Assembly: GCA_036497565.1 (NCBI GenBank)
Contig: DASXJE010000068.1
Location: forward strand, 1-45,085
Source of the DNA: Mycobacteriales bacterium
GTDB lineage: Bacteria > Actinomycetota > Actinomycetes > Mycobacteriales > QHCD01
Length of the DNA: 45,085 nt
Direction: 5' to 3'
Shown here: positions 10,678-43,177 of the stretch, piece after piece
Position numbering within the stretch: the stretch's first letter is position 1
Layout of the letters: each line of letters starts with the position of its first letter
Program-made: the position numbers and the translations under genes
Notes under the pieces: generated by a model
Seen by the model: only the letters and a program-made list of their open reading frames with translations
Database searches by the model: none
What the model was told of the DNA's origin: nothing

Positions 10678-10686
10678 CCGGTCGGC

Positions 10687-11265: not shown

Positions 11266-11269
11266 CTGA

Positions 11270-12733
11270 TCAGTGCCCGCCCACCGGGACGGGAACCGAC
11301 GCGTGCTCGACCTTCGGTGTGGGTGTGGAGTTGATGCTCCCGGTAGCCGGGTAGACCGAGCTTCCGCTCGGGGCCGGCTCGAGCGCCTGCCCGGTCGGGT
11401 TGTTGTAGATGTCGGGCCCGAACGGACGCAACCCGTCGGCGCCGGCGTACCCGAGGTGGCCCCGGCCGTCGACACCACCGGTCGTGATGCCGAACAGGTT
11501 CTCCATGCTGCGCAACCAGCTGTAGTGGTTGTAGGGCTGGTCGCTGATCGACCCGGGCTTGATGAACCGGCTGATGAAGACCGCGCCGGTGATCCCGCCG
11601 CCTGGGGTGGTGTCCTGGCCGAAGGCCTGATCCCCCGGCTGGGTGGTGTTCGGCCCGGGCAGCTCGTTGCAGCAGGCGACGATCGACTGGGCCGTGTCCG
11701 TCGGGACGTTCAAGGACGGATCGCTGTTGCCCATGTAGTCCGCGATCGAGTTGCCGTACATCTTGTACGGCGGGAACGCCTCGTCGAACACGATCTGGAT
11801 CTCGCCGTCCTTCTGGAAGGCGGGCGAGGCCATGATCTGCGGAATCCACTTCTTCAGGAACAGGTCGGCGGCGAACAGGCCACCCTGATGGTCGTGCGGG
11901 TTGCCCGTGCCGTTGGGCCCGACGCACGTCGCGTCGTGCGCGTTCGAGCAGTTGTTCGGCGTGATCCAGGAGAACTCCGGCGTCGAGGCGACCGTCTTCA
12001 GGTCGTCGCCCAGCGACGGAATCCGCGGGTGTCCGGGGATCGCCTTCAACCCGTCGAGCGGGACGACATTGCGGCAGTCCGCCGGGCTGTCGAAGACCCG
12101 GTGGAAGAACGCGGCCGGATTGTGCTTCGCCACGTACTGGTCGGTGGGTGTCGCGCTCCCCGGGTCGACGACCCCGGTCCCGGCCGGGTCGCCGGGGATC
12201 CCGCAGTGGTAGACCTCCTCGCGGGCCGGATCATTGCCCATGTCCTGGGCATAGATCTTCCAGCTCTTGTGCACCCGGTCGAGTTGGTTGAACAGGGTCC
12301 GGACCGAATGCGGATAGACGCACCCGGTGGAGGCGTAGGTCTGCCCGTCCGGCGCGGGGAATCCGGGCCGGGCGTTGGCGTAGATCGGGCAGTCCGCCTG
12401 GTTGTCCGGCGCGGGCGACTGGCCGCCGACCAGGCTGAGGTAGTTGTCCAGCGAGAAGTGGCCGGTGCCGTAGTACTGCCGCAGCAGTTCCCCGTAGCTG
12501 GGCAGCGTCTTCCACAGATAGCTGTTCTGGTTCAGCCCCGTGAACGTCGCCTCGTAGGACTTGTTCTCGAAAATGATCGTCCAGACGTGGCCGATCTTCG
12601 GCGGCTGGAAGGCCGCGGCGCTCGCCGGACTCGCCGCCGCTCCGCCCGCACCCGAGACCAACGCGGTGATCGCGGCGACCGCCGCGACTCCCACCGCTGC
12701 CCACCGCCCGCGCCGCCCCACCCGTGCCGTCAT
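11270..12733 (-). CDS. Secreted phosphoesterase (acid phosphatase / phospholipase C-like)
   Basis: 487 residues. The N-terminus has a basic start (MTARVGRRGR), a hydrophobic core and an Ala-rich cleavage region, so it is exported. The mature part begins with IGHVWTIIFENKSYEATF, the typical opening of the Pfam phosphoesterase family (AcpA, phospholipase C), followed by SLDNYLSLVGGQSP and later IQIVFDEAF, which supply metal and active-site residues in that alkaline-phosphatase-like fold. Likely it hydrolyses phosphate esters outside the cell; the substrate cannot be told. The ATG at 12733 has GGGGAG five bases upstream; the frame extends further but without a better site. It is co-directional with the lipoprotein gene downstream and inserted between pknB and trpG. 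Confidence 0.85.
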   Translation of the reverse strand: MTARVGRRGRWAAVGVAAVAAITALVSGAGGAAASPASAAAFQPPKIGHVWTIIFENKSYEATFTGLNQNSYLWKTLPSYGELLRQYYGTGHFSLDNYLSLVGGQSPAPDNQADCPIYANARPGFPAPDGQTYASTGCVYPHSVRTLFNQLDRVHKSWKIYAQDMGNDPAREEVYHCGIPGDPAGTGVVDPGSATPTDQYVAKHNPAAFFHRVFDSPADCRNVVPLDGLKAIPGHPRIPSLGDDLKTVASTPEFSWITPNNCSNAHDATCVGPNGTGNPHDHQGGLFAADLFLKKWIPQIMASPAFQKDGEIQIVFDEAFPPYKMYGNSIADYMGNSDPSLNVPTDTAQSIVACCNELPGPNTTQPGDQAFGQDTTPGGGITGAVFISRFIKPGSISDQPYNHYSWLRSMENLFGITTGGVDGRGHLGYAGADGLRPFGPDIYNNPTGQALEPAPSGSSVYPATGSINSTPTPKVEHASVPVPVGGH

Positions 12734-20518: not shown

Positions 20519-21628
20519 TCAGCGCCGGCGCTTCGCCCGCCGTGGTGCGCGAGCGGCTGACTTGCGGCCGGACGGGGGACGGGCGGTGCTGTCCCGCTCG
20601 ATGAGCTCTGCCGCGACCCGGACGGTGCGCGGCGGCCCGGGCGAGCCGAGGACCAGGTCCATCGCGCGCTCGCCTATCTCGCGCAGCGGCAGCCGGACCG
20701 TCGTCAGGGCGGGCGTGATGTCGCGAGCCAGCTCGATGTCGTCGTACCCGACGATGGAGACGTCGTCCGGGACGCGTCGGCCGGACTCCCGCAGGTAGGA
20801 GATCGCGCCGGTGGCCATGAGGTCGTTGGCGGCGAAAATCGCCGTGAGCTGGGGGCGACGCTCGAGCAGCGCCGCCGCGGCGGCCGCGCCGCCCTCGCGG
20901 CTGAAGCCGCCCTCCTCGATGGCGTCGTCGGGGATGGGGGCGCCGAGCCGCCCCATTTCGCTGCTGAAGCCGGTCAGCCGCTCCCGCACCGTCGTCAGGC
21001 CGAGCGGGCCGCAGGCGATGCCGACCGAGCGGTGCCCGAGCGCGCGCAGGTGCCGGGCAGCCTCCTTCGCGCCGGCCCGGTGCGCCGGGGCGACGGTGTC
21101 GCCGGACATCCCGTGCCGGCCGATGCCCACGACCCGACCGCCGGTGCCGAGGTAGGAGTCGACGGCCCGGGCGACCCGCCCGGACTGGTCACGATCGGCG
21201 AAGCCGCTCCCGGCGAGGACGATCGCGCGGGCCCGCTGGGCGCGGAGCCGGTTGATGTATTCGACCTCCAGCTCCGGATCGCGGGAGGTGCTGGTGACGA
21301 GCAGGAGCAGGCCGTTGGCCCGGGCGACCGCCATCGCACCCGAGGCGATCGCGGAGAAGTACGGGTCGTCGACGTCGTGGATGACCAGCCCGACGATGTC
21401 GGTCGCCGCCCGCGCCAGCGCCTGAGCCGGGCCATTGGACACGTAACCGACCTGGTCGGCCACGGCGAGGACCTTCTCCCGCAGGGCCTCGCCGACCACC
21501 CGCTCGCTGCCATTGAGCACCCGGGACGCGGTCGCCAGCGACACACCGGCGAGGTCGGCGACGTCCTTGAGCGTGGCCGACGCCGAGCGAACCGGTGCCG
21601 AGGTCCGTGTTGACGAGGAGGCGCGCAC
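20519..21628 (-). CDS. LacI-family transcriptional regulator
   Basis: 369 residues. The N-terminal LacI helix-turn-helix reads TLKDVADLAGVSLATASRVLNG (residues 19-40), followed by the hinge helix (SNGPAQALA) and a periplasmic-binding-protein-like sensor domain with FAANDLMATGAISYLRESG and PDDVSIVGYDDIELA, typical of sugar-responsive members. The C-terminus is unusually Arg/Lys-rich. I start at GTG 21628, where TATAGT on the minus strand lies 6 nt upstream, consistent with a leaderless transcript; the longer frame enters the divergent gene. It probably represses the divergent dehydrogenase-DUF993-isomerase genes through the palindrome at 21654-21669. The inducer is unknown. Confidence 0.92.
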   Translation of the reverse strand: MRASSSTRTSAPVRSASATLKDVADLAGVSLATASRVLNGSERVVGEALREKVLAVADQVGYVSNGPAQALARAATDIVGLVIHDVDDPYFSAIASGAMAVARANGLLLLVTSTSRDPELEVEYINRLRAQRARAIVLAGSGFADRDQSGRVARAVDSYLGTGGRVVGIGRHGMSGDTVAPAHRAGAKEAARHLRALGHRSVGIACGPLGLTTVRERLTGFSSEMGRLGAPIPDDAIEEGGFSREGGAAAAAALLERRPQLTAIFAANDLMATGAISYLRESGRRVPDDVSIVGYDDIELARDITPALTTVRLPLREIGERAMDLVLGSPGPPRTVRVAAELIERDSTARPPSGRKSAARAPRRAKRRR

Positions 21629-21634
21629 GCAGCG

Positions 21635-21640
21635 ACTATA
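21635..21640 (-). promoter_or_regulatory. Putative -10 element of the LacI-family gene, leaderless
   Basis: TATAGT on the minus strand ends 6 nt before the GTG at 21628, so transcription would begin at or next to the start codon. No Shine-Dalgarno is visible before that GTG. Confidence 0.45.
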
Positions 21641-21653
21641 TGGTGTCAGAGGC

Positions 21654-21669
21654 GGGCAAGCGTTTTCCC
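21654..21669. promoter_or_regulatory. LacI-type operator between divergent genes
   Basis: GGGCAAGCGTTTTCCC is a 16-bp imperfect palindrome around a central CG (12 of 16 positions symmetric), the shape of LacI/GalR family operators. It lies between the regulator start (21628) and the divergent dehydrogenase start (21725), where it can control both. Its use by this regulator is inferred from position. Confidence 0.65.
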
Positions 21670-21724
21670 ACACGCTCCCGGCCGGATCTGCGCAGCATGA
21701 CGGACCACGCTCGGAGGGCCATAG

Positions 21725-22876
21725 ATGAGCCGCAGGACCATCGGTATCGCGATGAACGGTGTCACCGGCCGGATGGGCTACCGACAGCATCTGCTCCGCT
21801 CGATCCTGGCGATCCGGGAGCAGGGCGGCCTCACGTTGCCCGACGGCACCGTGGTGTGGCCGGAGCCGCTGCTGGTCGGCCGCAACGCCGAGCGCCTCGC
21901 GCCGATCGCCGAGCGTCACGGCCTGACCCGCTGGACAACGTCGTTGGACGAGGCACTCGGCGATCCGGACATCGAGATCTACTTCGACACGCAAGTGACC
22001 GCGGCGCGCGAGAAGGCCCTGCTGCAGGCCATCGAGGCCGGCAAGCACATCTACACCGAAAAGCCGGTCGCCGATGCGCTCGAGGGCGCGCTCCGGCTGC
22101 TGCGCGCCGCCGAGGCGGCCGGCGTCCGGCACGGCGTCGTCCAGGACAAGCTGTTCCTGCCCGGCCTCATCAAGCTCCGGCGTCTCGTGGAGGGCGGATT
22201 CTTCGGCCGGATCCTCTCTGTTCGGGGTGAGTTCGGCTATTGGGTGTTCGAGGGCGACTGGCAGCCGGCGCAGCGGCCGTCGTGGAACTACCGCGCCGAG
22301 GACGGCGGCGGCATCGTCGCGGACATGTTCTGTCACTGGCGCTACGTGCTCGACCAGGTGATCGCGCCGGTCCAGGCCGTCACGGCGCATGCGGTGACCC
22401 ACATCCCGGACCGCTGGGACGAGCACGGCGAGCACTACCGGGCCACCGCCGACGACGCGGCGTACGCGATCTTCGAGTTGGCCGGCGGCGTGGTCGCGCA
22501 GGTCAATTCCTCGTGGGCGACCCGGGTGCACCGCGACGAACTGGTGGAGTTCCACGTCGACGGGACCGAGGGCAGTGCAGTAGCCGGGCTGCGGTCGTGC
22601 ATCGTGCAGCACCGCGCCGGCACGCCGATGGCCGAGTGGAACCCGGATCTGCCGGTGCCGGTCGACTTCCGCTCGCAATGGCAGGACGTCCCGGACAACG
22701 CGGCGTTGGACAACGGCTTCAAGCGGGAGTGGGAGCTCTTCCTCTCCCATGTCGTGGCCGATACGCCCTTTCCGTGGAACCTGCTCGAGGGCGCGAAGGG
22801 CGTGCAGCTCGCCGAGCTCGGTCTGCGGTCCTCGGCAGAGGGCCGTCGACTGGAGGTCCCGGAGCTGCGCCCGTGA
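21725..22876 (+). CDS. Gfo/Idh/MocA-family oxidoreductase, first gene of a putative sugar-degradation operon
   Basis: 383 residues. The N-terminal Rossmann loop is GIAMNGVTGRMGYRQH, followed by the family EKP motif (E112-K113-P114 in YTEKPVAD) and a C-terminal domain with GGGIVADMFCHWRYVLD, which contains the catalytic His/Asp region. It should oxidise a sugar, sugar derivative or cyclitol with NAD(P). Compared with the other two Gfo/Idh proteins here it has a longer N-terminal part (an extra segment around residues 30-47). It is divergent from the LacI gene, and its stop overlaps the DUF993 start by 4 bases (GTGA), so the products are made together. Confidence 0.9.
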   Translation: MSRRTIGIAMNGVTGRMGYRQHLLRSILAIREQGGLTLPDGTVVWPEPLLVGRNAERLAPIAERHGLTRWTTSLDEALGDPDIEIYFDTQVTAAREKALLQAIEAGKHIYTEKPVADALEGALRLLRAAEAAGVRHGVVQDKLFLPGLIKLRRLVEGGFFGRILSVRGEFGYWVFEGDWQPAQRPSWNYRAEDGGGIVADMFCHWRYVLDQVIAPVQAVTAHAVTHIPDRWDEHGEHYRATADDAAYAIFELAGGVVAQVNSSWATRVHRDELVEFHVDGTEGSAVAGLRSCIVQHRAGTPMAEWNPDLPVPVDFRSQWQDVPDNAALDNGFKREWELFLSHVVADTPFPWNLLEGAKGVQLAELGLRSSAEGRRLEVPELRP

Positions 22877-24033
22877 GCGTCTCGCTGCGCCTGCCCGCTC
22901 CCGCGGGCGTCGTCCGCACCATCACGCTCGACGAACCGCCGAAGTGGCCGACCGGCGGGGCGCTCCGCTCCCGGTCCGTCTACGCCGCCGCGCATGTGGT
23001 CGCCGATCCGCTGGCCGACAACGCGCCGGGCGCCCCGGCGGTCGTCGACTGGGACGCGACCCTCGCCTTCCGTCGCCACCTGTGGTCGCTGGGGCTCGGC
23101 GTCGCCGACGCCATGGACACCGCGCAACGCGGCGCCGGGCTGGACTGGCCGGCGGTGCAGGAGCTGATCCGACGGTCCGGCAAGGAGGCGGCGGCGGTCG
23201 GCGGTCGGCTCGTGTGCGGTGCCGGCACCGACCAGTTGACCGGGCCGGCGCGCGACCTGGACGAGGTCCGGGCGGCGTACGAGGAACAGCTCGCGCTCGT
23301 CGAAGACGTCGGATCCCGCGTCGTGCTGATGTGCTCGCGCGAGCTCGCCGCGCTCGCCCGGTCGGCCGAGGACTACCACGCGGTCTACGCGCCGCTGCTC
23401 CGGCAATCGCGGGACCCGGTGATCCTGCACTGGCTCGGGCCGATGTTCGACCCGGCCCTGACCGGCTACTGGGGATCGACCGACCTCGACGTCGCGATCG
23501 CATCGCTGCTGACGCTGATCGCGGACCATCGCGACAAGATCGACGGGATCAAGCTCTCGCTGCTCGACTCCGACCGGGAGATCGCGCTGCGCCGTGCGCT
23601 TCCGGACGGCGTACGGCTCTACACCGGCGACGACTACCACTACCCGCAGCTGATGGCCGGCGACCAGCACGGCCACAGCGACGCCCTGCTCGGCATCTTC
23701 GACCCGATCGCACCGGCCGCTTCGGCCGCGGTGCGGGCGTTGGACGACGGTGATCCGGCCCGGTTCCGCAAGATCCTCGACCCGACGGTGCCGTTGGCGC
23801 GGCACCTGTTCGGCCCGCCGACCTACCACTACAAGACCGGCGTGGTCTTCCTGGCGTGGCTGGCCGGACACCAGGATCATCCGCTGATGGTCGGCGGTGC
23901 CCAGGCCGGGCGGTCCGTTCCGCACCTCGTCGAACTCGTCGCCCTAGCTGCCGCGGCGCACATCCTGCCGGACCCCGAGCTCGCCGCGGACCGGATGCGT
24001 CGCTTCCTGGCGATCGCCGGGTTCGGGCCGTGA
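22873..24033 (+). CDS. DUF993 family, dihydrodipicolinate-synthase-like TIM-barrel protein
   Basis: 386 residues. The block VYAAAHVVADPLADN with VDWDATLAFRRHLWSLGLGVADAMDTAQRG (about 36-87) is the recognisable DUF993 opening. Later motifs HWLGPMFDPAL and DGIKLSLLD carry K227, in the position expected for a Schiff-base lysine of class I aldolase or DHDPS-like barrels, followed by LYTGDDYHYPQL. A retro-aldol or lyase step in sugar breakdown is a plausible guess, not established. GTG 22873 overlaps the preceding stop and its own stop overlaps the next GTG, so it is the middle gene of a coupled trio. Confidence 0.88.
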   Translation: MSVSLRLPAPAGVVRTITLDEPPKWPTGGALRSRSVYAAAHVVADPLADNAPGAPAVVDWDATLAFRRHLWSLGLGVADAMDTAQRGAGLDWPAVQELIRRSGKEAAAVGGRLVCGAGTDQLTGPARDLDEVRAAYEEQLALVEDVGSRVVLMCSRELAALARSAEDYHAVYAPLLRQSRDPVILHWLGPMFDPALTGYWGSTDLDVAIASLLTLIADHRDKIDGIKLSLLDSDREIALRRALPDGVRLYTGDDYHYPQLMAGDQHGHSDALLGIFDPIAPAASAAVRALDDGDPARFRKILDPTVPLARHLFGPPTYHYKTGVVFLAWLAGHQDHPLMVGGAQAGRSVPHLVELVALAAAAHILPDPELAADRMRRFLAIAGFGP

Positions 24034-24866
24034 CCGCCCACCCCCGCCTGTCGTTGAACCAGGCGACGACCAAGCGCTGGACGTTGCCCGAGACGGTGGC
24101 CGGCTGCGTCGAGGCGGGGATCGGCGGGATCGGGCTGTGGCGTGACCGGGTGGCCGAGGTCGGCGCCGGACGCGCGGCCCGGATCGTCGCCGATGCTGGG
24201 CTCACGGTGACCAGCCTGTGCCGGGGCGGCTTCCTCAGCGACGGTGAGCCGGCGGCGCGCAAGGCGGCGTACGACGACAACCGGCGCGCGATCGACGAGG
24301 CGGCCCTGGTCGGCGCGCCGGAACTACTGCTCGTGGTCGGCGGACTGCCCGCGGGCAGCCGCGACCTGGCCGGCGCGCGGGCGGCGGTGGCCGATGCCCT
24401 GACCGAGCTGGCGCCGCATGCGCGCGCAGCCGGGGTCCGGCTGGTGCTGGAGCCGCTGCACCCGATGTTCTGTGCCGATCGCGCGGTCGTCTCGACGCTG
24501 GGTCAGGCGCTCGACATGGCCGATGCGTTCGAGCCGCGCGAGGTCGCGGTGTGCGTCGACACCTATCACGTCTGGTGGGATCCGACGTTGGCCGCACAGC
24601 TGGCCCGGGGCGGTGAGCGGATCGCCCTCTACCAGGTGTCGGACTGGGTGCTGCCGCTCGCGGCCGATGCGCTGCTCTCCCGCGGGCACCTCGGCGACGG
24701 TTCTATCGACACCGCTTCCATCACCGACCTGGTCACTGCCGCCGGCTACACCGGGTGGATCGAGGTCGAGATCTTCCGGCAGGACGTCTGGGACGCGCCG
24801 GGACGGGACACCGTCGCGCGAGTGGTGTCGACGTTCGACGCGATGATGCGTTCCACACATTCCTGA
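24030..24866 (+). CDS. Sugar phosphate isomerase/epimerase-like protein (AP-endonuclease-2 fold)
   Basis: 278 residues. A TIM-barrel of the xylose-isomerase-like superfamily: LSLNQATTKRWTLPETV at the start, LVLEPLHPM with a metal-ligand Glu, AVCVDTYHVWWDP with Asp/His ligands, ALYQVSDW, and the closing GWIEVEIF with the final Glu. Members isomerise or epimerise free or phosphorylated sugars and keto-sugars, or cleave 3-keto-glycosides when paired with Gfo/Idh dehydrogenases. GTG 24030 overlaps the DUF993 stop. The pairing with a dehydrogenase and an aldolase-like protein suggests consecutive steps of one pathway. Confidence 0.88.
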   Translation: MTAHPRLSLNQATTKRWTLPETVAGCVEAGIGGIGLWRDRVAEVGAGRAARIVADAGLTVTSLCRGGFLSDGEPAARKAAYDDNRRAIDEAALVGAPELLLVVGGLPAGSRDLAGARAAVADALTELAPHARAAGVRLVLEPLHPMFCADRAVVSTLGQALDMADAFEPREVAVCVDTYHVWWDPTLAAQLARGGERIALYQVSDWVLPLAADALLSRGHLGDGSIDTASITDLVTAAGYTGWIEVEIFRQDVWDAPGRDTVARVVSTFDAMMRSTHS

Positions 24867-33620: not shown

Positions 33621-34868
33621 TCAGGCGTTGCTGCGGAACACCGTCCGGAAGTGGTCGTCGGCGTACTGCCGGGCGAGGAGTACGGCGCCGCGGATCGGTG
33701 CGTCGGCGCCGAGTGCGGCCGGCCGGAGGCTCAGCCCCCGAACCGCCTGGGGAAGGGCGTCACGGCGCATCGCCGCCTCCATCGGCTCGAGCAGCAGCGG
33801 GCCGACGTCGGCGAGGCCGCCGGTGACGATCACGATTCCGGGGTTGACGATGTTGACCAGCCACGAGGTCGCCGTACCGAGGATCTCGGCCGCCTGCTCG
33901 ATCAACGTCAGCGCGAGGCGATCGCCGGTCGCGGCCGCCGCGGCGACGTCCCGGGTGGTCACCGGCCGGGATAGCTCGCCGAGGGTCGAGCGACGACCGG
34001 CCGCGAGAGCGCGGGCGGCGGCACGTTCGATGGCCGGGCCGGACGCGACGGTTTCCAGGCACCCGACCTTCCCGCAGTTGCAGGTCTCCGTCGCGCCCGG
34101 GACGGTGCAGTGGCCGAGTTCGCCGGCGACTCCCGCTCCGCCGAGGACGACCCGGCCGCCCCGGAGCATGCCCGCGCCCACGCCGGTCGAGGCGTAGACG
34201 CAGACCACGTCGTCGTAGCCCCGGGCGGCGCCGTCCTCGGCCTCGGCGACCACCACTGCCTGCGCGGTGTTGTGCACGAAGATCGGCGCCGAAAACTCCT
34301 GGCCGAGCAGGTCGGCGACGGCGACGTCGTGCCAGCCGAGGTTGGGCGCGAGCAGGCAGACCGACGTCGTCGGGTCGACGATCCCGGGGACGACGACGCC
34401 GACGGCCGCCACCGAGGAGTCCTGCGCGCCGGCTTCGTGGAGCAGGTCATGGATCAGCCCGGCGGCCGCCCCGATCGTCGACCGCGGCGGGCCACCGGGT
34501 GTCGTCGCGCTGCATCGGGCGAGCGTGTCCCCGAGCGCGTCGGTGACCACCACCGTGGTGGTCCGGGCTCCGATCGCGACACCGACGAGGTGCCGCGAGG
34601 ACGGGTCGACGCTGAGCAGCCGCGGGGGGCGCCCGCCGGCGGGAGCGCTCGCGCCCTGGCCGCTCTCGTGGACCACGCCGGCGGCGATGAGCTCCTCGAC
34701 GACGCTGGAGACGGTCGCCTTCGCCAGACCCACCTGACGCGACAGGGCGGCACGGGACAGCGGTCCGTCCGTCCGCAACAGGGACAGCACGGCCTCGGAG
34801 TTGATCCGCCGGGTGACGTCCTGGCGGGCGCCCCTGCCGCCGGTCACACCCTCGCCGGTGCGCGTCAT
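33621..34868 (-). CDS. ROK-family transcriptional regulator
   Basis: 415 residues from ATG 34868. The N-terminal winged helix (about 15-75) reads INSEAVLSLLRTDGPLSRAALSRQVGLAKATVSSVVEELIAAGVV. The ROK sugar-kinase-like domain follows, with LVGVAIGARTTTVVVTD and the zinc-binding TCNCGKVGCLETVASG. Such XylR/NagC-type proteins repress sugar genes and respond to a sugar or sugar phosphate. In the region ASTGVGAGML the phosphate-binding loop is retained, so kinase activity cannot be excluded. No divergent target gene adjoins it; the nearest candidates are the solute-binding protein operon at 35943 and beyond. Confidence 0.9.
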   Translation of the reverse strand: MTRTGEGVTGGRGARQDVTRRINSEAVLSLLRTDGPLSRAALSRQVGLAKATVSSVVEELIAAGVVHESGQGASAPAGGRPPRLLSVDPSSRHLVGVAIGARTTTVVVTDALGDTLARCSATTPGGPPRSTIGAAAGLIHDLLHEAGAQDSSVAAVGVVVPGIVDPTTSVCLLAPNLGWHDVAVADLLGQEFSAPIFVHNTAQAVVVAEAEDGAARGYDDVVCVYASTGVGAGMLRGGRVVLGGAGVAGELGHCTVPGATETCNCGKVGCLETVASGPAIERAAARALAAGRRSTLGELSRPVTTRDVAAAAATGDRLALTLIEQAAEILGTATSWLVNIVNPGIVIVTGGLADVGPLLLEPMEAAMRRDALPQAVRGLSLRPAALGADAPIRGAVLLARQYADDHFRTVFRSNA

Positions 34869-34975
34869 CGTGGCCTGCCCGGGACTCGACGGGTGCGGGG
34901 ATCGAAGACCGGGCGATGCCACGACCAGGCATCCCAGGTTCGGTCGGTGACCTTACTTACCGCGGCGCTCATCGG

Positions 34976-35875
34976 CTAGCCGGAGTCCGGCCAGATTCGC
35001 GCGGCCAGGGCGGTCAGGTTGTGCCGGCCGAATACCGCGTCGATGCGGCTGGTGTCCGACGTCGCCCGGAAGACCGACGGTGGCGCCCCGAAGGCGGCGC
35101 TGAAGCTGCGGGAGAAGTGATAGGGACTCGCGTACCCGCACGCCTCCGCCGCCTGCACGACGGTGACGTTGCTGTGCACGAGCAGGCTCGCCGCGTGCGC
35201 GAGACGGAGCAGTTCGAAGGCCTTGGCCGGCCCGAGCGCGAAGGCGGCGCGGAACTGCCGGGACAGATGACCCTTCGACGTACCTGCGGCGGAGGCCATC
35301 TCATCGAGTGGGATCGGGCGCATGCCACGCGGCCACAGTCGATGCACGTAGGCCGCGAGCCGCTCGATGGAGTCGGGTAGTACGTCGGCCGGGCCGAGCT
35401 CGACGAGCGTGCCCGAGGCGACCAGGCGGACCACTGCCTCGAGGGCGGCCTCGGCCGGTTCCCGCCATCCGGCCGGGCGGAGCTGACCGAGCTGGAGGAG
35501 GTAGCGCAACAGCGCGTGCCGCACGTCCGAACCGGGTATCGCGATGACGGTTGGCCGGCCCTCAGGCACGCCGCCGTCGCGCAGCTCGAAGTCGACGTAG
35601 GCGTGCGCGCAGCGCCGACCGGCCGCCGGACGCGGGCCGGCATCCGACTCGTCCTCCCAGTACACCGTCGCGGCGACGCCCGCAGGCGCGAGCAACAAGT
35701 GGCCGGGCGTGAGCACCGCCGAGCGACCGGCACAGATCCACCGGGCGGCGCCCGACTGCATCCACACCAGCTCGTGACACGGCAGGATGCGCGGCCCGTA
35801 GACGCTGCCCACCGGCGCCTCGCCGCGTCCGATCGCGCGCACGCAGACCTGCGAGCGGTAGCCGGTCGATGACAC
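34976..35875 (-). CDS. AraC-family transcriptional regulator
   Basis: 299 residues from GTG 35875. The N-terminal cupin-like sensor half (VYGPRILPCHELVWMQSGAARW, LTPGHLLLAPAGV) is followed by the C-terminal double helix-turn-helix with PIPLDEMASAAGTSKGHLSRQFRAAF and VVQAAEACGYASPYHFSRSFSAAFG. It probably controls the divergent solute-binding protein-dehydrogenase-dioxygenase operon, whose start is only 67 bp away. The inducer is unknown, likely the transported sugar. Confidence 0.92.
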   Translation of the reverse strand: MSSTGYRSQVCVRAIGRGEAPVGSVYGPRILPCHELVWMQSGAARWICAGRSAVLTPGHLLLAPAGVAATVYWEDESDAGPRPAAGRRCAHAYVDFELRDGGVPEGRPTVIAIPGSDVRHALLRYLLQLGQLRPAGWREPAEAALEAVVRLVASGTLVELGPADVLPDSIERLAAYVHRLWPRGMRPIPLDEMASAAGTSKGHLSRQFRAAFALGPAKAFELLRLAHAASLLVHSNVTVVQAAEACGYASPYHFSRSFSAAFGAPPSVFRATSDTSRIDAVFGRHNLTALAARIWPDSG

Positions 35876-35906
35876 GATCAGTCATCATCATGCGTCCGGC
35901 GGGTAT

Positions 35907-35922
35907 GGGCAAGCGCTGCCCC
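35907..35922. promoter_or_regulatory. LacI-type operator-like site before the solute-binding protein operon
   Basis: GGGCAAGCGCTGCCCC matches the operator at 21654-21669 in 13 of 16 positions, including the whole left half GGGCAAGCG. It lies in the 67-bp gap between the AraC gene and the solute-binding protein gene. It may be bound by the LacI protein encoded at 20519-21628 or by a relative. Confidence 0.45.
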
Positions 35923-35942
35923 GTCGGTCGAGAGTGTCGGCC

Positions 35943-38066
35943 GTGACCGATCGCGGCAGCATGTCCCGGCGGACGTTCCTCTACGGCTCGGCGCTCGTCG
36001 CCGGGTCGGCGATGCTGAGTGCCTGCACGTCGGGGACGAGCAACGCCGGGAAGGACGTCGGCAGCACCGCACGCGGCTCCGCGCGCACTCCCCTGACCGC
36101 GCCGAAGTCCCTCCGCGAGTCCCCGACCCTGGCCGGCCAAGTCAAGGCCGGCACGCTGCCGGCGGTGGCGAAGCGGCTGCCCGGCCATCCCTACGTCGTC
36201 CCGCACCACTGGGTCGAGCGCGGCCGGTACGGCGGCGTACTCAACATGATCGCGTTCTCGAGCGAGGGCGCGGCGGCGACCGACTCCAACCGCGAGTTCT
36301 ACTACGGCAACTCGCTGCTCCGCTGGCTGAACGACGGCCTCGACGTCGGTCCTGGCCTGGTCGAGAAGTGGTCGACCAACTCCGACACGTCGGAGTGGGT
36401 GCTGCACCTGCGGGCGGGCGTGAAGTGGTCCGACGGCCACCCGTTCGGCACCGACGACATCCTCTTCTGGTGGGACGACCTGGTGCTGCCGGCCCACTAC
36501 GCGCAGGTCCCGCCCGACGAGTGCCGGTCCGGCAAGGGCACTCTCGTCAAGATCACGGCCGTCGACGACGTCACCCTGAAGATGACCTTCGACGCACCGG
36601 CGCCGCTCACGGCCGACCGGCTCGCCGAGTGGGCCAAGGGGGCGATCGGGCACAACGGCCCGATCTGGGTGATCCCCAAGCACTACGCCAAGCAGTTCCA
36701 CCCGAAGTACAACAAGAGCGTCCCCAAGAACTGGGACATCGTCGGCGGGCTGTGGGAACAGAAGACCGACTGGATGCGCAATCCGGCCTGTCCGACCCTG
36801 ATCGGCTACCGGTGCAAGTCGTTCAACAACAACACCGGTGTCGTCCTCGAACGCAACCCCTACTACTGGGCGGTCACCAGGGACGGTGACCAGCTGCCCT
36901 ACATCGACGAGGTCGTCATCAAGACGACGCAGGACGCGCAGGTCGGTCAGCTGCAGGTGCGGCAGGGCTCGGTCGACTTCTGCCACGGTCCGTACAACCA
37001 GATCGACCTGTCCGACGTGTCGACGCTGAGCCAGTCGACGAAGAAGGCGGGCACCCGGATCGTGCTGTGGGACAGCGGATCGGGCACCGGGTCGATGTTC
37101 TTCCTCAACTACGACTATCCCGACCCGAAGCTGCGCAAGCTCTTTCGCGAGCCGAAGTTCCGCCAGGCGATCTCGCACGCCTTCAACCGCGCGGAGGCGC
37201 AGCGCGCACTCTACTTCCAGACCGGCGAACTGACGACCGGGACGATGAGCCCCAAGGCCTCCGAGTTCCGCGGCGCCAAAGGGCAGCAGATCTACGCCCG
37301 GTGGCGCGACTCCTACAAGTCACACGACCCGGCGAAGGCGAAGGCACTGCTCGCCGAACTCGGCCTGAAGGACACCGACAACGACGGCTACGTGGAGTTG
37401 CCCGACGGGTCGAAGCTCACGATCCGGATCGACTACTCGGCCGACATCAGTCCGACGGAAGGGGCGAAGGACGATCAGCTCGTCCGCGACTGCAAGGCGA
37501 TCGGTCTGCACATGGTGCGCAACCCCATCTCTCCGCAGACCTACGGCGACCTGTGGGCCGCGGGACAGCTCATGGTCCACACCAACTGGGAGGTGAGCAA
37601 CGACCCGAGCTGTCTCATCTATCCGCAGTGGCTGGTGCCGATCGAGAACGCGCGCTGGGCACCGCTCGAGGGTCAGCTCTACGCGCTGCGCGGCACGGCC
37701 GCCGAGCACGAACAGCAGAACGTCGATCCGTGGAAGCGCAACCCGCCGCGGCTCGAGCCCGAAGCGGGCGGGCCGATCGCCGCGCTGTGGGATCTCTACG
37801 ATCGCAGCAAGGTCGAACCGGACGAGCAGAAGCGGACCGAGCTGGTCTGGGAGATGATCAAGATCCACATCGACCAGGGCCCGTTCTTCATGGGCACCGT
37901 CGCCGGGTATCCCCAGGTCGTGGTGACCAAGACGGATCTGAAGAATGTCCCGGGCCGGGAAAACCTCGCGCAGGGCGGCTTCACCAACACGTGGGGCCTC
38001 CCGACGCCGGCCGTCTACGACCCGGAGGTCTTCTACTGGCAGAACCCGGCCGAGCACACCGCCTGA
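35943..38066 (+). CDS. ABC transporter substrate-binding protein, family 5 (peptide/sugar type), Tat-dependent lipoprotein
   Basis: About 707 residues. The N-terminus has a twin-arginine-like SMSRRTFLYG, a hydrophobic core and the lipobox LSAC. The mature part is an SBP_bac_5 domain: LRWLNDGLDVGPGLVEKWS, WVLHLRAGVKWSDGHPFGTDDILF, PYLDE-type block (here LPYIDEVVIKTTQDAQ), KFRQAISHAFNRAE. It binds an oligopeptide, oligosaccharide or other solute outside the cell. Start alternatives are GTG 35934 and ATG 35961; all keep the signal sequence. No permease or ATPase gene is adjacent, so the transporter must be encoded elsewhere. It is the first gene of an operon with a dehydrogenase and a dioxygenase. 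Confidence 0.9.
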   Translation: MTDRGSMSRRTFLYGSALVAGSAMLSACTSGTSNAGKDVGSTARGSARTPLTAPKSLRESPTLAGQVKAGTLPAVAKRLPGHPYVVPHHWVERGRYGGVLNMIAFSSEGAAATDSNREFYYGNSLLRWLNDGLDVGPGLVEKWSTNSDTSEWVLHLRAGVKWSDGHPFGTDDILFWWDDLVLPAHYAQVPPDECRSGKGTLVKITAVDDVTLKMTFDAPAPLTADRLAEWAKGAIGHNGPIWVIPKHYAKQFHPKYNKSVPKNWDIVGGLWEQKTDWMRNPACPTLIGYRCKSFNNNTGVVLERNPYYWAVTRDGDQLPYIDEVVIKTTQDAQVGQLQVRQGSVDFCHGPYNQIDLSDVSTLSQSTKKAGTRIVLWDSGSGTGSMFFLNYDYPDPKLRKLFREPKFRQAISHAFNRAEAQRALYFQTGELTTGTMSPKASEFRGAKGQQIYARWRDSYKSHDPAKAKALLAELGLKDTDNDGYVELPDGSKLTIRIDYSADISPTEGAKDDQLVRDCKAIGLHMVRNPISPQTYGDLWAAGQLMVHTNWEVSNDPSCLIYPQWLVPIENARWAPLEGQLYALRGTAAEHEQQNVDPWKRNPPRLEPEAGGPIAALWDLYDRSKVEPDEQKRTELVWEMIKIHIDQGPFFMGTVAGYPQVVVTKTDLKNVPGRENLAQGGFTNTWGLPTPAVYDPEVFYWQNPAEHTA

Positions 38067-38098
38067 GCGCGCCATTCACCCGGAGGAAGCACGTACCG

Positions 38099-39127
38099 AT
38101 GCCCACTGTCGATGACCAACCCCTCGGCGTACTGCAGATCGGCGCCGGCGCCGCCGGTATGGCGCACCTGCGCGTGGCCGGAAACCATCCCCGGTGCCGG
38201 CTGATCGCGGCCGCCGACGTGTCGCCGCCGGCACGTGCGGCCGCCACGGCGGAGTTCGCGGTCCCGGCGTACGCCGACTACCGGGAGCTGCTCGACCGGC
38301 ACGCGGCTGAGGCGCAGATCGCCATCGTCGTCGTCCCCCATCACATCTACCCGGACGTGATCGATGCGCTTGCCGGCACCGACCTGCACATCCTGAAGGA
38401 GAAGCCGTTCGCCCGGAATCTCGACGACGCCCGACGGATGGCGGAGCGGCTCCGCGACCGCGGTCGGGTGTACATGACGTCGGGGCAGCGGCTGCTCGAC
38501 CCGGCGTACCGCCGAGCGCTCGACCTCGTGCGCAAGGGCGAGCTCGGCGACATCTACCTCGCCGAGGGCCGGATCCTCTACGCGTGGAATCCGGACGGGC
38601 AGAACTGGGGTTGGCGAGGCGATCGCGACCTGTCCGGCGGGACGGCGATCCTCGACGCGGGTTGGCACATGCTTGGTGCGCTGACCGCGTGCAAGGGTCT
38701 GCCGGAGCGGGTGTTCGCCACGATCGGTTCGATGCGGGCCTGCCCCGGGGACTGGACGTCGGACGACAAGGGTGCGATGACGCTCGAGTACGCCGACGGC
38801 TCGATCGCCACCGTTGTCAGCAGCCACGTCGCGCTCCCGGACCGGTTCGAGCTGTTGCTGCACGGGACGTCGGGAAACCTCGAGGTCAACCTCTCGCGCC
38901 TTGTCCGCTACGACCGCACCGCCGCTGCCGGCGCAGCCGAGGAGTGGACGCGCAGTAATCTCCTCGCCGAGCAGCTCGACCATTTCCTCGCCTGTGTCGA
39001 CGGGCGGGAGACCCCGGAATCCGGCCTGAACGAATCGCTGGACCTGCAGCGCATCGTCGAAGCGGCCTACCGTTCGGCGGCGACCCGGCAACCCGTCGAT
39101 CTGGGTGACACGGAGGTATCGGTATGA
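38099..39127 (+). CDS. Gfo/Idh/MocA-family oxidoreductase of the solute-binding protein operon
   Basis: 342 residues. LGVLQIGAGAAGMAHLRVA gives the Rossmann loop, E101-K102-P103 in LKEKPFA is the family motif, and GGTAILDAGWHMLGALTACKG is the catalytic region with Asp/His. It should oxidise a sugar, cyclitol or related compound with NAD(P). The ATG at 38099 has GGAGG about 11 nt upstream, and the gene follows the solute-binding protein stop by 32 bp. Its stop overlaps the next ATG by 4 bases. Sequence differs clearly from the other two Gfo/Idh proteins of the window, so this is not a recent duplicate. Confidence 0.9.
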   Translation: MPTVDDQPLGVLQIGAGAAGMAHLRVAGNHPRCRLIAAADVSPPARAAATAEFAVPAYADYRELLDRHAAEAQIAIVVVPHHIYPDVIDALAGTDLHILKEKPFARNLDDARRMAERLRDRGRVYMTSGQRLLDPAYRRALDLVRKGELGDIYLAEGRILYAWNPDGQNWGWRGDRDLSGGTAILDAGWHMLGALTACKGLPERVFATIGSMRACPGDWTSDDKGAMTLEYADGSIATVVSSHVALPDRFELLLHGTSGNLEVNLSRLVRYDRTAAAGAAEEWTRSNLLAEQLDHFLACVDGRETPESGLNESLDLQRIVEAAYRSAATRQPVDLGDTEVSV

Positions 39128-39972
39128 GCAGCGAGCGGCGCCAGTCCGTGGAGGAACGGGCGGACCTCGGCCCGGAACTGGACGGCGTGCACCCCGTGAC
39201 CGAGGCGGAGGTCGGCACGTTCCAGCGGGACGGACAGGTCATCATCCGCGGCCTGGCCTCCCCCACCGAGGTGGCGGCGTACCGCACGCTGATCGAGGAG
39301 GCGGCGCTCGGCACGCCGAAGCACGCCGCGTCGGCGGATGAGGGTGAGGTCTACGCCCAGGCCTTCGACCAGTACATCAACCTGTGGCAGCGGGATGCGC
39401 GGGTCGCTGCCTTCACCCTGTCCCGCCGGTTCGCCCGGGTGGCCGCCGCGTTGCTCGAGGCGTCCGGTGTGCGGCTCTACCACGATCAGGCGCTGTTCAA
39501 GCAGGCGGGCGGTGGCCGTACGCCGTGGCACCAGGACATGCACTACTGGCCGCTGTCCACCGACCATGCACTGACGATGTGGATGCCGTTGGTCGACCTG
39601 ACCCCTGACATGGGTGAGCTGATCTTCGCGGCCGGTTCGCACCACGACGGGGCGATGGCCGACGTACCGATCTCCGGATCGTCCGACGCCATCCTCGAGA
39701 AGGAACTCGCGACCCGCGGCTATCCGCTGAAGGCCACCGGCACGATGGCCGCCGGTGACGCGTCGTTCCATGCCTCCTGGACGCTGCACTCGGCCAGCGC
39801 GAACCGAACCGGAACCCAGCGGGAGGTCATGACGCTGATCTGGTTCGAGGACGGTGCCCGGCTGATCGCGCCGACCAACGACGGTCAGCGCGCCGATCTC
39901 GAAAACTGGTTCCCGGGACTCATGCCCGGCGATCTCGCCGCCAGCCCGTTGAACCCGAATCCGCTCGACTAG
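39124..39972 (+). CDS. Phytanoyl-CoA dioxygenase (PhyH)-family non-heme iron oxygenase
   Basis: 282 residues. The double-stranded beta-helix iron site is visible: H136 and D138 in TPWHQDMHYWPL, the distal His H222 in WTLHSASANRTG with the 2-oxoglutarate-binding Arg R228 just after. VTEAEVGTFQRDGQVIIRGL is the usual N-terminal start. The enzyme should hydroxylate or cleave a small substrate using 2-oxoglutarate, iron and oxygen. ATGA overlap with the dehydrogenase gene shows coupled translation, so both probably act on the same imported compound. The 120-bp gap to the next gene has no clear terminator. Confidence 0.9.
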   Translation: MSSERRQSVEERADLGPELDGVHPVTEAEVGTFQRDGQVIIRGLASPTEVAAYRTLIEEAALGTPKHAASADEGEVYAQAFDQYINLWQRDARVAAFTLSRRFARVAAALLEASGVRLYHDQALFKQAGGGRTPWHQDMHYWPLSTDHALTMWMPLVDLTPDMGELIFAAGSHHDGAMADVPISGSSDAILEKELATRGYPLKATGTMAAGDASFHASWTLHSASANRTGTQREVMTLIWFEDGARLIAPTNDGQRADLENWFPGLMPGDLAASPLNPNPLD

Positions 39973-40092
39973 GGCCGGTAACGCCTACGGACGGCGGGCC
40001 AGCAGGTCGACGACGGGGCTGTTCCGACGGCGCGGCCGTACGTCGAGTTACCTCAGTGCCCGACCCCGAAATGACACCGGAGGCGTGGAGCC

Positions 40093-41484
40093 GTGACGAC
40101 CGTGTTACGGCGCGCGCCGACGACCCGACGACTGACCCTGCCGACGCTGCTTGCGGTCACGTTGATGGGCACGTTGATCAACAACATCCTCAACGTGCCG
40201 CTCCGGGCGATCAGCAGCGACTTCCATGTCGCCCCGTCCTCGGGTGTACTGGTGGTGAGCGGGTTCGTACTGGTCCTCGCGGCGGCCATGCCGCTCTCGG
40301 GATGGGTCGGGGACCGCTTCGGGCGACGCCGGACGATCATCGTCGCGCTCGCACTCATGGCGGCGGCCATGGTCGGCGCGGCCCTCGCACCGTCCCTCCC
40401 GGTGTTGATCGCGCTGCGCGCCGTGCAGGGCCTCGCGTGCGCCGCGTTCCCGCCGGCAGTGATGGGAATGCTGTCCAGCATCTACGGCCCCGGGCAACGG
40501 GGCCGGATGATGAGCGCCTGGGCCGGTGCGAACGGTCTCGGCCAAGCGATCGGCCCCCCGGTCGGCGGACTGCTCGCCGGCCTCGCTGGGTGGCGGTCGA
40601 TCTTCTGGCTGCTCGCGCCGCTCGCCGTCGGCGTACTGATCGCGACGGTCCGCACAGTCCCGGACGACCGAGGCCGGCCCACGCCGCTGCACCTGCCGGG
40701 AGCGGTATCGCTGACGGTCGGCGGTGCGCTGCTGATGACCGCCGCGACGGCCATACCGCAGGAGGTCGTACCGCGCTGGCTCGTGGTCGCGCTGGCGCTC
40801 GCCGGGGTCGGCTTCGTCGCGCTGTTCGTCCTCCTGTCGACGCGGGCGGCGGACCCGATCATTCGGCCGAGGCTCATCATCGAGTCGCGGTTCATGCGCA
40901 GCGCGGTCGCGGCGTTCGCCCAGATGTTCTGCCTCGCGACCGTGCTCGTCGGAGTTCCGCTTTACGTCACGGGTGCGCTCGGGCGCACGACCACCGTGAC
41001 CGGATTGCTGGTCTTCGCATTGCCCGCCACGATGGCTGCGGGCGCGCCCGTGGTCGGGCTGGTCAGCGAACGGATACATCCCCGGCGGGTGCTGCGGGCC
41101 GGGCTGGTGCTGCTGGCCACGGTCGAGCTGGCCCTCGGCTGGTGGGTCGGCACCGGCCATCGCAGCCTGCCGGGGCTCGTGGTGCTGCTGATCGCGGTCG
41201 GCGTCGGTGTGGCGCTCGTGCAGACGCCGTCGGCGACCGGTGCCACCCGATCGCCGGCCGGGCGGGCCGGCGTCGCGCTCGGGTTGTTCAACATGATGCG
41301 GTTCGCCGGGACGGCACTCGCCGCGGCCTGGGTGGCGGTGACCTACCCGCAGGGCGACCTCTTCCTGCTGTTCGCCGGCTGCGCCGCCGTCGCCGCGATC
41401 GGCCTGCTGGTCAGTTTCGCCGGCCCCGATCCGGTCGACCGCGCGATCACGGAGCAACCGGACCGGGCGGTCATCTCGGGTTGA
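40093..41484 (+). CDS. MFS transporter of the drug:H+ antiporter (DHA2-like) type
   Basis: 463 residues with 12-14 membrane helices. Motif A between helices 2 and 3 reads GWVGDRFGRRRT, and the helix 5 antiporter motif region QAIGPPVGGLLAGLAGWRSIFW is typical of EmrB/QacA-type exporters. It probably exports drugs or metabolites with proton antiport, though sugar-acid uptake cannot be excluded. GGAGGCGTGGA lies just upstream of GTG 40093. It converges on the PucR-family gene with a 14-bp overlap at the ends. Confidence 0.88.
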   Translation: MTTVLRRAPTTRRLTLPTLLAVTLMGTLINNILNVPLRAISSDFHVAPSSGVLVVSGFVLVLAAAMPLSGWVGDRFGRRRTIIVALALMAAAMVGAALAPSLPVLIALRAVQGLACAAFPPAVMGMLSSIYGPGQRGRMMSAWAGANGLGQAIGPPVGGLLAGLAGWRSIFWLLAPLAVGVLIATVRTVPDDRGRPTPLHLPGAVSLTVGGALLMTAATAIPQEVVPRWLVVALALAGVGFVALFVLLSTRAADPIIRPRLIIESRFMRSAVAAFAQMFCLATVLVGVPLYVTGALGRTTTVTGLLVFALPATMAAGAPVVGLVSERIHPRRVLRAGLVLLATVELALGWWVGTGHRSLPGLVVLLIAVGVGVALVQTPSATGATRSPAGRAGVALGLFNMMRFAGTALAAAWVAVTYPQGDLFLLFAGCAAVAAIGLLVSFAGPDPVDRAITEQPDRAVISG

Positions 41485-43177
41485 GGTCGCGGTCGACGGC
41501 CTCGGTCGTCTCCGCGAGCAGGTCGAGCTTGTAGGCCAGCCACACGGTGAACTGGTGCTCGGCCTTACGGAGATCGAGGCGCAATGCGCGGGACGCGCGG
41601 TCGAGCTTGTAGAGCATCGTGTTGCGGTGGATGTGCAGCTCGCGGGCGGCGGCGTTGAGGTTGCCGCCGGACTCGATGTAGGTCATCACCGACGCCTCGA
41701 TGTCGCTCGCGCCGGCCCGGGGGCTGCGCAGCGGGGCGAGCACGTCGCGGGCGAACGACCGGCCCTGCTCGCTGGCGGCGAGTTCGGCGAGCGTGGTGTA
41801 GACCCGAAGGTCGTCGAAGCCGCAGGCCCGGTCGAGGCCCAGCCGGCCGCGGAGGCCGAGCGCCAGGCGCGCATCACGGTAGCTGTCGACGATGCGGGTC
41901 GCGCCGATGGCGGGGCGGCCGTAGGCGAGCGCGACCGGATGGTCGACGCGACGGACCAACTCCTGTTCGAGCGCGGCTGCGTAGTCGGCCAGTGCGCTGC
42001 CCGCGGCCTCCGCCGGGTCGTCGCGGCCGTCGACGGCGAGCCGCCGGACCACGGCGACCACCTCGCCGACGACGGTGGCCAAGGTCTGGCAGTTCGGCCG
42101 CGGCACCAGCCGGGCGGTCTGCTTGGCGAGCTGGGAGAGCGCGGTCACCGCCTCGTCGCCGGCCTCGACGAGGTCACGCACCACGATCACGCCGTAGCTG
42201 CCGTCGGTCGGGAAGTCGTAGTGCGCCGCGCGCGCCTCCAGGTCACGCGCGGTCGCGAACCTCCCGTGCAGCAGGGCATGCACGAAGTCGCCCCGGGTGC
42301 GCTCCTCGGCCTGCTCGACGCTGCGCATCCGCAGCATCTCCGTCCCGACGATTGTGGCACCTTGATCGACCACGACCCGGTGCTCGGCGATGTCGCGCGG
42401 ATGCGGCGTGGCGTCGCACTCGACCAGCACCACCCAGCCGTCGTGCCGGCCGGCGAGCAGGATCGGGTTGACCACGCAGGTCGCGTCGACGCCGTCGAGC
42501 CGCAGCGGCCACACCGCCGGGTCGCCGTGCTCCGGCTCCATGCCGATCGGCGAGATCTCGGCCTCGGTCCGCACCGCGGCAGCGACCGCGGCGGGCTCGA
42601 GGACCCGGTCGCGGCTCTGCTCGAAGGCGAGCACGTGGTACTGCGGATCGAGGATCGCCACCGCGCAGCCGGACAGCCGGGCCATCTGATCACACAGCGC
42701 CGCGATCCCGGAGCCGCGGTAGAGCAGCTCGACCAGAGACCGGTGCACGGTGAGCCCGTAGCGCAGCACGTGGGTCTCGCGGGCCAGCGTGAGGTCGGCG
42801 ACCAGGTGGCTGAGCTCCCGGAACCCGACCCGCCCGCCGACCAGCACCAGCGGTACGCCGGTGGCCGGCGCGACGGCGTCCTCCTCGGCCCCCGCGACGA
42901 TCACCGCCGCAGCCGCCCGGCGCTCCAACAGCTTCAGCTCGGCGTCGTCGAGCTGGCCGGACCGGGCGTAGATCACGACGCCGTCGAGTTGGTCGTCGGT
43001 CGACAGCGCCTGCTCCCACGGCAGGCACCAGGTGACCGGCGTGCACAGCAGGTCGGTCTCGACCGTCGTACGGGCCTGGCGTAGCAGCCGCTCCTGCAGC
43101 AGGCGACCGACGGTGAGCTGGTCGTCGGCCACCTCGGCGACCCCGCCGTCGTACGCCGCCCCCGTGACGTCTTCCAT
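41471..43177 (-). CDS. PucR/CdaR-family transcriptional regulator
   Basis: 568 residues. The N-terminal PucR-type domain (LTVGRLLQERLLRQART... with VVIYARSGQLDDAELK) is followed by a middle region of GGDEF-like character (YDFPTDGSYGVIVVRD, RPAIGATRIVDSYRDARLAL) and the C-terminal helix-turn-helix ASVMTYIESGGNLNAAARELHIHRNTMLYKLDRA. Members control purine, sugar-diacid, amino acid and similar catabolic genes. CdaR-like proteins respond to glycerate and control galactarate/glucarate genes, which is notable as a galactarate dehydratase-like gene starts at 44753. The ATG at 43177 has AAGGAG 5 nt upstream. Confidence 0.9.
   Translation of the reverse strand: MEDVTGAAYDGGVAEVADDQLTVGRLLQERLLRQARTTVETDLLCTPVTWCLPWEQALSTDDQLDGVVIYARSGQLDDAELKLLERRAAAAVIVAGAEEDAVAPATGVPLVLVGGRVGFRELSHLVADLTLARETHVLRYGLTVHRSLVELLYRGSGIAALCDQMARLSGCAVAILDPQYHVLAFEQSRDRVLEPAAVAAAVRTEAEISPIGMEPEHGDPAVWPLRLDGVDATCVVNPILLAGRHDGWVVLVECDATPHPRDIAEHRVVVDQGATIVGTEMLRMRSVEQAEERTRGDFVHALLHGRFATARDLEARAAHYDFPTDGSYGVIVVRDLVEAGDEAVTALSQLAKQTARLVPRPNCQTLATVVGEVVAVVRRLAVDGRDDPAEAAGSALADYAAALEQELVRRVDHPVALAYGRPAIGATRIVDSYRDARLALGLRGRLGLDRACGFDDLRVYTTLAELAASEQGRSFARDVLAPLRSPRAGASDIEASVMTYIESGGNLNAAARELHIHRNTMLYKLDRASRALRLDLRKAEHQFTVWLAYKLDLLAETTEAVDRDLNPR

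Follow-up and report, generated by a model that had tools for sequence, protein, structure and literature searches.

A binding-protein operon without a local permease in a Mycobacteriales bacterium, and a candidate importer shared by its paralogues

How might a bacterium use a compound through an operon that encodes a receptor and two enzymes and no membrane transporter? The question is raised by the draft genome of a Mycobacteriales bacterium (NCBI GenBank assembly GCA_036497565.1), in which we analysed positions 1 to 45,085 of the forward strand of contig DASXJE010000068.1 (henceforth referred to as ‘the window’). Behind a divergent gene for an AraC-family regulator (34976..35875, - strand; PF12833, 66.5 bits) lie three + strand genes spanning 35961-39972, which encode a twin-arginine translocation (Tat) lipoprotein of solute-binding protein (SBP) family 5 (35961..38066), a Gfo/Idh/MocA-family oxidoreductase (38099..39127) and a PhyH-type Fe(II)/2-oxoglutarate dioxygenase (39124..39972). 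The SBP and Gfo/Idh genes are spaced by 32 nt, the Gfo/Idh and PhyH frames share 4 nt (ATGA at 39124) and, by eye, GGAGG stands 5' of the Gfo/Idh and PhyH starts with spacers of 12 and 7 nt, respectively. The co-directional order and terminal overlap described by an earlier interpretation made from the letters alone (henceforth the sequence-only reading) were thus confirmed, as was its statement that no permease or ATPase follows: a search of all open stretches of at least 50 amino acids (aa) across the 45-kb window with home-made hidden Markov models (HMMs; E 1e-3) found no ATP-binding cassette (ABC) permease or ATPase, and a permease overlooked elsewhere in the window was rejected on the same search. 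On balance we favour the interpretation that the operon is an AraC-controlled module for the capture and oxidation of a carbohydrate-like compound, whose SBP is a ‘satellite’ that feeds a shared importer encoded on another contig, C164.

Binding-protein paralogues and importer genes in the host genome

The subfamily of the window SBP has seven members in the assembly, the other six of which are 61-73% identical to it and full or nearly full length (on C164, C23, C106, C208, C259 and C140); a further short piece on C144 was left out of the SBP counts. The C164 copy alone has transporter genes downstream, namely two permeases and two ATPases, and then a gene for a 177-aa protein without a Pfam match. 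The cognate permease gene, PermB, occurs once in the assembly, where the other 12 matches are 25-34% identical to it. Thus, several paralogous SBPs and one cognate translocator, the gene arrangement expected of a multi-SBP system with a shared translocator, were found in this draft assembly. In contrast to the subfamily, each of nine other family-5 SBP genes of the host has a PermB-like gene within 4 kb, and a contig-edge piece of such a gene (C214) has two ATPases and a permease downstream. Overall, transporter genes adjoin 10 of the 11 other family-5 genes or fragments vs one of the seven subfamily members (Fisher P 0.0025); without the contig-edge pieces C214 and C123 the counts become 9/9 vs 1/7 (P 0.0009), and the P value is 0.002 when C140 is also left out. 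The absence of a permease from the operon is therefore probably due to the window SBP and its sisters feeding one shared importer.

In the mechanism that we propose, the satellite lipoprotein would bind the compound at the cell surface and hand it to the C164 importer, which would be common to about six paralogous SBPs, and inside the cell Gfo/Idh and PhyH would act on the compound in sequence. We infer the docking on the C164 importer, and likewise the sugar-type ligand and the control by AraC. The assembly itself (high G+C content, 4.8 Mb, 316 contigs) is 97.8% complete with 4.4% contamination; a contaminant origin of the seven SBP contigs was considered and set aside on a weak test, in which their 4-mer profiles gave no foreign sign and correlated with other sampled host contigs at 0.989-0.994, above six other actinobacteria.

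We also considered whether the satellite uses a different importer, either another peptide- or sugar-type permease of the host or a carrier encoded downstream. The nine other PermB-like genes could be taken to favour this, as could a major facilitator superfamily (MFS) gene (40093..41484, + strand; PF07690, 175.9 bits) that starts 120 nt 3' of PhyH on the same strand and is a possible read-through member of the operon; the + strand showed no terminator-like site from 34900 to 41600. However, the other PermB genes are just 25-34% identical to the cognate one and each lies within 4 kb of its own SBP, and the MFS protein resembles DHA2 drug-efflux carriers (TIGR00711, 132.1 bits, under the cut-off of 230.2). 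MFS carriers are not known to work with SBPs, and overall we regard a different importer as unlikely.

Receptors and importers in other genomes

The window SBP has no close relative in 60 genomes (one of the same family and the others of the same order; best E 1.8e-8), and among 394 genomes of the class, the host's own included, only two others had a match at E 1e-60, 31-33% identical; with only two such distant matches, the subfamily could not be traced in near kin. A wider comparison (one genome per species; best 80 of 200 confirmed matches) located it in Microlunatus, Actinopolymorpha, Kribbella, Nonomuraea, Streptomyces and some Chloroflexi. Ten named genomes contain 51 SBPs of the subfamily (at about 47% identity or higher) vs 12 permeases at least 60% identical to the cognate PermB, with at least one such permease in every genome. 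The ratio of SBPs to PermB was 14:1 in Actinopolymorpha pittospori, 15:1 in A. rutila and 8:1 in A. alba; 4:2 in Microlunatus endophyticus, 3:1 in M. parietis and 2:1 in M. speluncae; 2:2 in Kribbella; and 1:1 in Nonomuraea and in each of two Streptomyces. The 51 SBPs derive from 62 rows after removal of nine at 32-34% identity and of a stop-bearing fragment (G452), and after merging of two pieces in G444. Together with the host's seven they make up a set of 58, which excludes L109, a truncated copy from A. rutila, as well as the Chloroflexi copies (L085, L086, L088, L089, L091-L093 and L095). Two of these Chloroflexi copies, L085 and L086, lack a permease next to them, in a genome not covered by the search for a hub, that is, a copy with its own importer.

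Within this set, 12 of the 58 SBPs have a permease pair within 150 nt downstream, and for another two a pair of this kind is no more than 6 kb away. Only other permeases occur within 6 kb of a further three, for two of them on the opposite strand, and 41 have no permease in the up to 6 kb examined per side (some sides being shorter, e.g. at contig ends). Each of the 11 genomes (the ten named and the host) has at least one hub. The sequence-only reading had suggested a survey of orthologous loci for a permease; most subfamily members turned out to lack a local one as well, and one cognate importer did emerge, on C164. Eleven hub importer operons end with a gene for a protein of about 160-195 aa, which could be an accessory component; the host copy (L057 2883-3416) matches no Pfam family.

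In a tree of 61 SBPs (a quick build without bootstrap and with a midpoint root), the Actinopolymorpha group was separate from a group of host, Microlunatus, Streptomyces and Nonomuraea copies, with values of 97 and 99 in the Shimodaira-Hasegawa-like approximate likelihood-ratio test (SH-aLRT); the former group includes one Kribbella copy and excludes one long-branched A. rutila copy, and the other Kribbella copies fall in the host group. Because these groups are separate, the SBPs have probably multiplied in at least two lineages. Simple duplication inside the host lineage was not supported, as copies from other genera, both hubs and satellites, are interspersed with the seven of the host. In twelve satellite pairs, the A. 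pittospori and A. rutila members share 73-83% identity, with ratios of non-synonymous to synonymous divergence (dN/dS) of about 0.12-0.35, and the hub pair of the two species has a dN/dS of 0.33; these values come from simple counting, and dS is unreliable at high G+C content. By this low dN/dS, orphan satellites are apparently maintained between the two species. Satellites also decay, since a Kribbella copy carries an internal stop and an A. pittospori copy is in two pieces (L205 6001-8079 and L202 8001-10111).

Candidate ligand, enzymes and neighbours of the satellites

The SBP open frame (35934-38066, + strand) has candidate starts at GTG 35934, GTG 35943 (the one taken by the sequence-only reading) and ATG 35961, of which the last best fits the Tat motif. 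The protein scored 187.1 bits with PF00496 (cut-off 32.4) and 17.2 with the Tat signal model TIGR01409 of NCBIfam (cut-off 16.7), and a Tat motif (SRRTFLYG) and a lipobox (LSAC) were recognised by eye; its description as a Tat lipoprotein of family 5 therefore holds. It does not fall in the dedicated oligopeptide transporter class (Opp4A/OppA/DppA), as the best equivalog, NF045467, gave 82.9 vs 650 bits and the adjacent permease and ATPase genes of that class are absent from the window. The structural model (predicted local distance difference test score, pLDDT, 87) was nearest to 5ipw, annotated as OppA, and then to SPH1118 of Sphingomonas (PDB 7veu) and MelB of Agrobacterium (PDB 6epy). The latter two are large family-5 sugar binders, for pectin/galacturonate (SPH1118, solved with galacturonate) and raffinose/melibiose (MelB, solved with galactinol, melibiose or raffinose), and differ from the window SBP in being just 21-23% identical to it in the structural alignments; a sequence search was in agreement. 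Since these close structures bind sugars and the sequence search concurs, our best guess would be a sugar or sugar acid as ligand, likelier than a phosphonate.

One of these structures, SPH1118, is titled a chemotaxis-dependent binding protein, and the Dpp system of Pseudomonas aeruginosa is also a chemosensor according to the paper on its DppA proteins. It is accordingly conceivable that the orphan SBP is a sensor and not a transport part, signalling to a membrane receptor or merely scavenging at the surface. However, no sensor kinase or chemoreceptor was present among the seven genes scanned around the operon, whose regulators are of AraC, ROK and PucR types, and those members of the SBP subfamily that are linked to other transport genes sit in importer operons. 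We thus think a sensory role improbable.

The Gfo/Idh protein exceeded the cut-offs of PF01408 (60.5 vs 24 bits), PF02894 (61 vs 22.9) and PF22725 (74.2 vs 27). Its nearest PDB sequences include scyllo-inositol/L-glucose dehydrogenase and aldose-aldose oxidoreductase, and no homologue at E 1e-45 was found in the other 393 of the 394 class genomes searched. The PhyH protein scored 91.5 bits with PF05721 (cut-off 22). H136, D138, H222 and R233, which we take to be the HxD...H iron triad and the 2-oxoglutarate arginine of the PhyH pattern, are invariant in nine aligned rows, so that its iron and 2-oxoglutarate residues are intact. Its model (pLDDT 86) best matched the PhyH-fold enzymes SnoK, MysH, SnoN and EvdO2, from which it differs at 18-24% identity; those of them with solved structures belong to natural-product pathways and not to uptake operons. 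The interpretation given by the sequence-only reading is supported in part: that of an uptake-and-oxidation operon without a local permease is supported by the sugar-binder-like SBP and by the intact PhyH residues. In contrast, the phosphonate-like substrate that it had also entertained was rejected, as NF052437, the model of the methylphosphonate hydroxylase PhnY*, gave 35.1 bits vs a cut-off of 500, which disfavours methylphosphonate. The order of the two reactions and their chemistry are guessed: most plausibly, a sugar hydroxyl would be converted to a ketone, and a hydroxylation would remove or labilise a substituent.

Relatives of PhyH, 36-45% identical, occur in 21 of 393 other class genomes (E 1e-30), and a divergent AraC gene stands beside PhyH in all nine class-relative loci examined and also at several PhyH loci of the host; four of these AraC labels were confirmed by Pfam. 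A second host copy, on C41 and 42% identical, adjoins a Gfo gene. The host (G000) has 26 PhyH genes in 4.8 Mb, several with a divergent AraC gene, and three Actinopolymorpha genomes have 25-53. A Gfo gene is found at no more than 3 kb from four of the host's 26 PhyH genes vs 1.16 expected (P 0.03).

PhyH genes were also found near subfamily SBPs more often than expected. For 56 SBPs (the two Streptomyces genomes, which had no PhyH count, were left out), a PhyH gene lay within 3 kb of six vs 1.74 expected (Poisson P 0.009), within 1.5 kb of five vs 0.98 (P 0.003) and within 6 kb of eight vs 3.22 (P 0.017). As the window itself was picked for its SBP-PhyH pairing, the counts were repeated without it and gave 5/55 vs 1.70 expected within 3 kb (P 0.03) and 4/55 within 1.5 kb (P 0.017); clustering of PhyH genes could inflate this statistic. 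Genes at these loci were called with a simple codon-usage caller and labelled with home-made HMMs, those labels that were scanned being confirmed by Pfam, and small genes and distant relatives may therefore have escaped notice. In the Gfo HMM, one seed (window 22873-24033) proved to be DUF993, and an HMM rebuilt without it lost only that label.

Other satellites have neighbours of a similar kind. The C259 satellite lies alongside PhyH and a divergent AraC gene, that on C140 alongside Gfo, ThuA and LacI genes, and that on C106 alongside an aldehyde dehydrogenase gene; Actinopolymorpha satellites occur with Gfo-ThuA-LacI, with PhyH and adjoining an alpha-amylase gene. At L060 5610-10176, the C208 satellite comes directly after genes for a 5-dehydro-4-deoxyglucarate dehydratase (subfamily model PRK03620, 398.9 vs 278 bits; KdgD equivalog, 301.7 vs 373.95) and a glucarate-dehydratase-like protein (251.6, under the cut-off of 828.7). 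Because these dehydratase genes directly precede it, its position suggests that the C208 SBP binds an aldarate. The LacI-ThuA-Gfo cluster adjoins satellites in the host, Actinopolymorpha and M. endophyticus (L061, L197, L220, L233 and L225; Pfam confirmed parts of it). A satellite lies directly 5' of a 348-aa gene in each of three Actinopolymorpha species (L192, L211 and L229, about 6500-11500). This gene is TsaD in L192, where the satellite SBP is preceded by a GNAT acetyltransferase gene and a short gene of the TsaD family.

Several observations weigh against a shared importer serving dedicated catabolic modules. The contig-edge family-5 piece C123 also has no permease on its contig, and a second importer could have been missed, because the assembly is a draft of 316 contigs and the downstream side of the C140 SBP is off its contig. 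Seven of the ten named genomes contain 25 further PermB rows of 42-50% identity, genes that might be the partners of some satellites. In Actinopolymorpha, certain satellites adjoin the housekeeping genes tsaD and uvrD. The pairing of PhyH with Gfo in the host falls to 3/25 without the window (P 0.10) and is non-significant, so it is not established. Finally, an examination of the 57 other SBPs showed none with the trio of SBP, Gfo and PhyH within 4 kb on the same strand; the trio itself is not conserved, but PhyH on the one hand, and Gfo together with ThuA on the other, do recur next to SBPs. The absence of the trio elsewhere, and the broken satellites of other genomes, would also fit a relic, that is, an SBP left functionless by loss of its permease or genes that are merely adjacent. 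Against this, the frames are intact, Gfo/Idh and PhyH overlap by 4 nt and have ribosome-binding sites, dN/dS is low for the orphan satellites that are conserved in other species, and PhyH next to orphan SBPs recurs. A relic is therefore very unlikely in our judgement, and a satellite SBP that feeds the C164 importer is the interpretation that we retain.

Elsewhere in the window, a ROK/NagC-like repressor gene adjoins the AraC gene (33621..34922, - strand; PF00480, 193.4 bits), and its membership of the system is uncertain. LacI regulator, Gfo/Idh, DUF993 and xylose-isomerase-like TIM-barrel genes at 20519-24866 form another likely carbohydrate locus, for which the home-made HMMs found no ABC transporter in the window. 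Genes at 3-11 kb resemble, by eye, the FHA, RodA, PBP and PknB cluster of Actinobacteria.

Known shared importers and the significance of a proposed hub with satellites

The use of one translocator by several SBPs is established. In P. aeruginosa, the paralogous DppA1-A5 share the permease and ATPase set DppBCDF, dppA5 being distant from the operon (PMC4206461, PMC12728205), and four of the five showed distinct ligand profiles and DppA5 showed none (PMC12728205). Borrelia burgdorferi likewise has many SBPs for few translocators, with five Opp binding proteins, and differs in that peptides are taken up by an amino-acid auxotroph and two permeases are named (PMC5736914). The Cbc choline/betaine/carnitine transporter, as cited in PMC8110962, recruits several SBPs and is named there as a precedent for orphan SBPs with membrane parts encoded elsewhere; its class of ligand is another one. 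In the structure of E. coli DppABCDF, a ‘scoop’ of DppB enters the SBP cleft (PMC12136057). Whereas the P. aeruginosa system handles peptides with five SBPs, four of them adjoining the permease operon, there are seven in the host, and 14-15 in two Actinopolymorpha, which are nearly all dispersed, are of sugar type and in some cases have their own enzymes and regulators. We found no description of the SBP subfamily or of the SBP-Gfo-PhyH trio in the titles and opening abstract lines of the open-licence PMC papers listed. What is new is the number of dispersed receptors (14-15), their sugar-type family and the way in which some of them are grouped with enzymes and regulators.

It is possible, and we put it forward tentatively, that some Actinobacteria have a network of a hub and satellites, in which a single ABC importer of sugar type works for up to about fifteen lipoprotein receptors that are encoded at dispersed sites. 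Of these receptors, several sit in locally regulated catabolic modules (with AraC and PhyH, with LacI, Gfo and ThuA, or with glucarate genes), and a nutrient would be gained by acquiring a receptor and enzymes and no new membrane transporter; the window operon would be one such plug-in, with an undescribed route through PhyH and Gfo/Idh. If this is true, many ‘incomplete’ ABC importers in actinobacterial annotations would be complete systems with a shared port, and transporter counts would understate the substrate range. The substrate of an SBP could be guessed from its adjoining enzymes, and the knock-out of one permease should abolish growth on many unrelated compounds.

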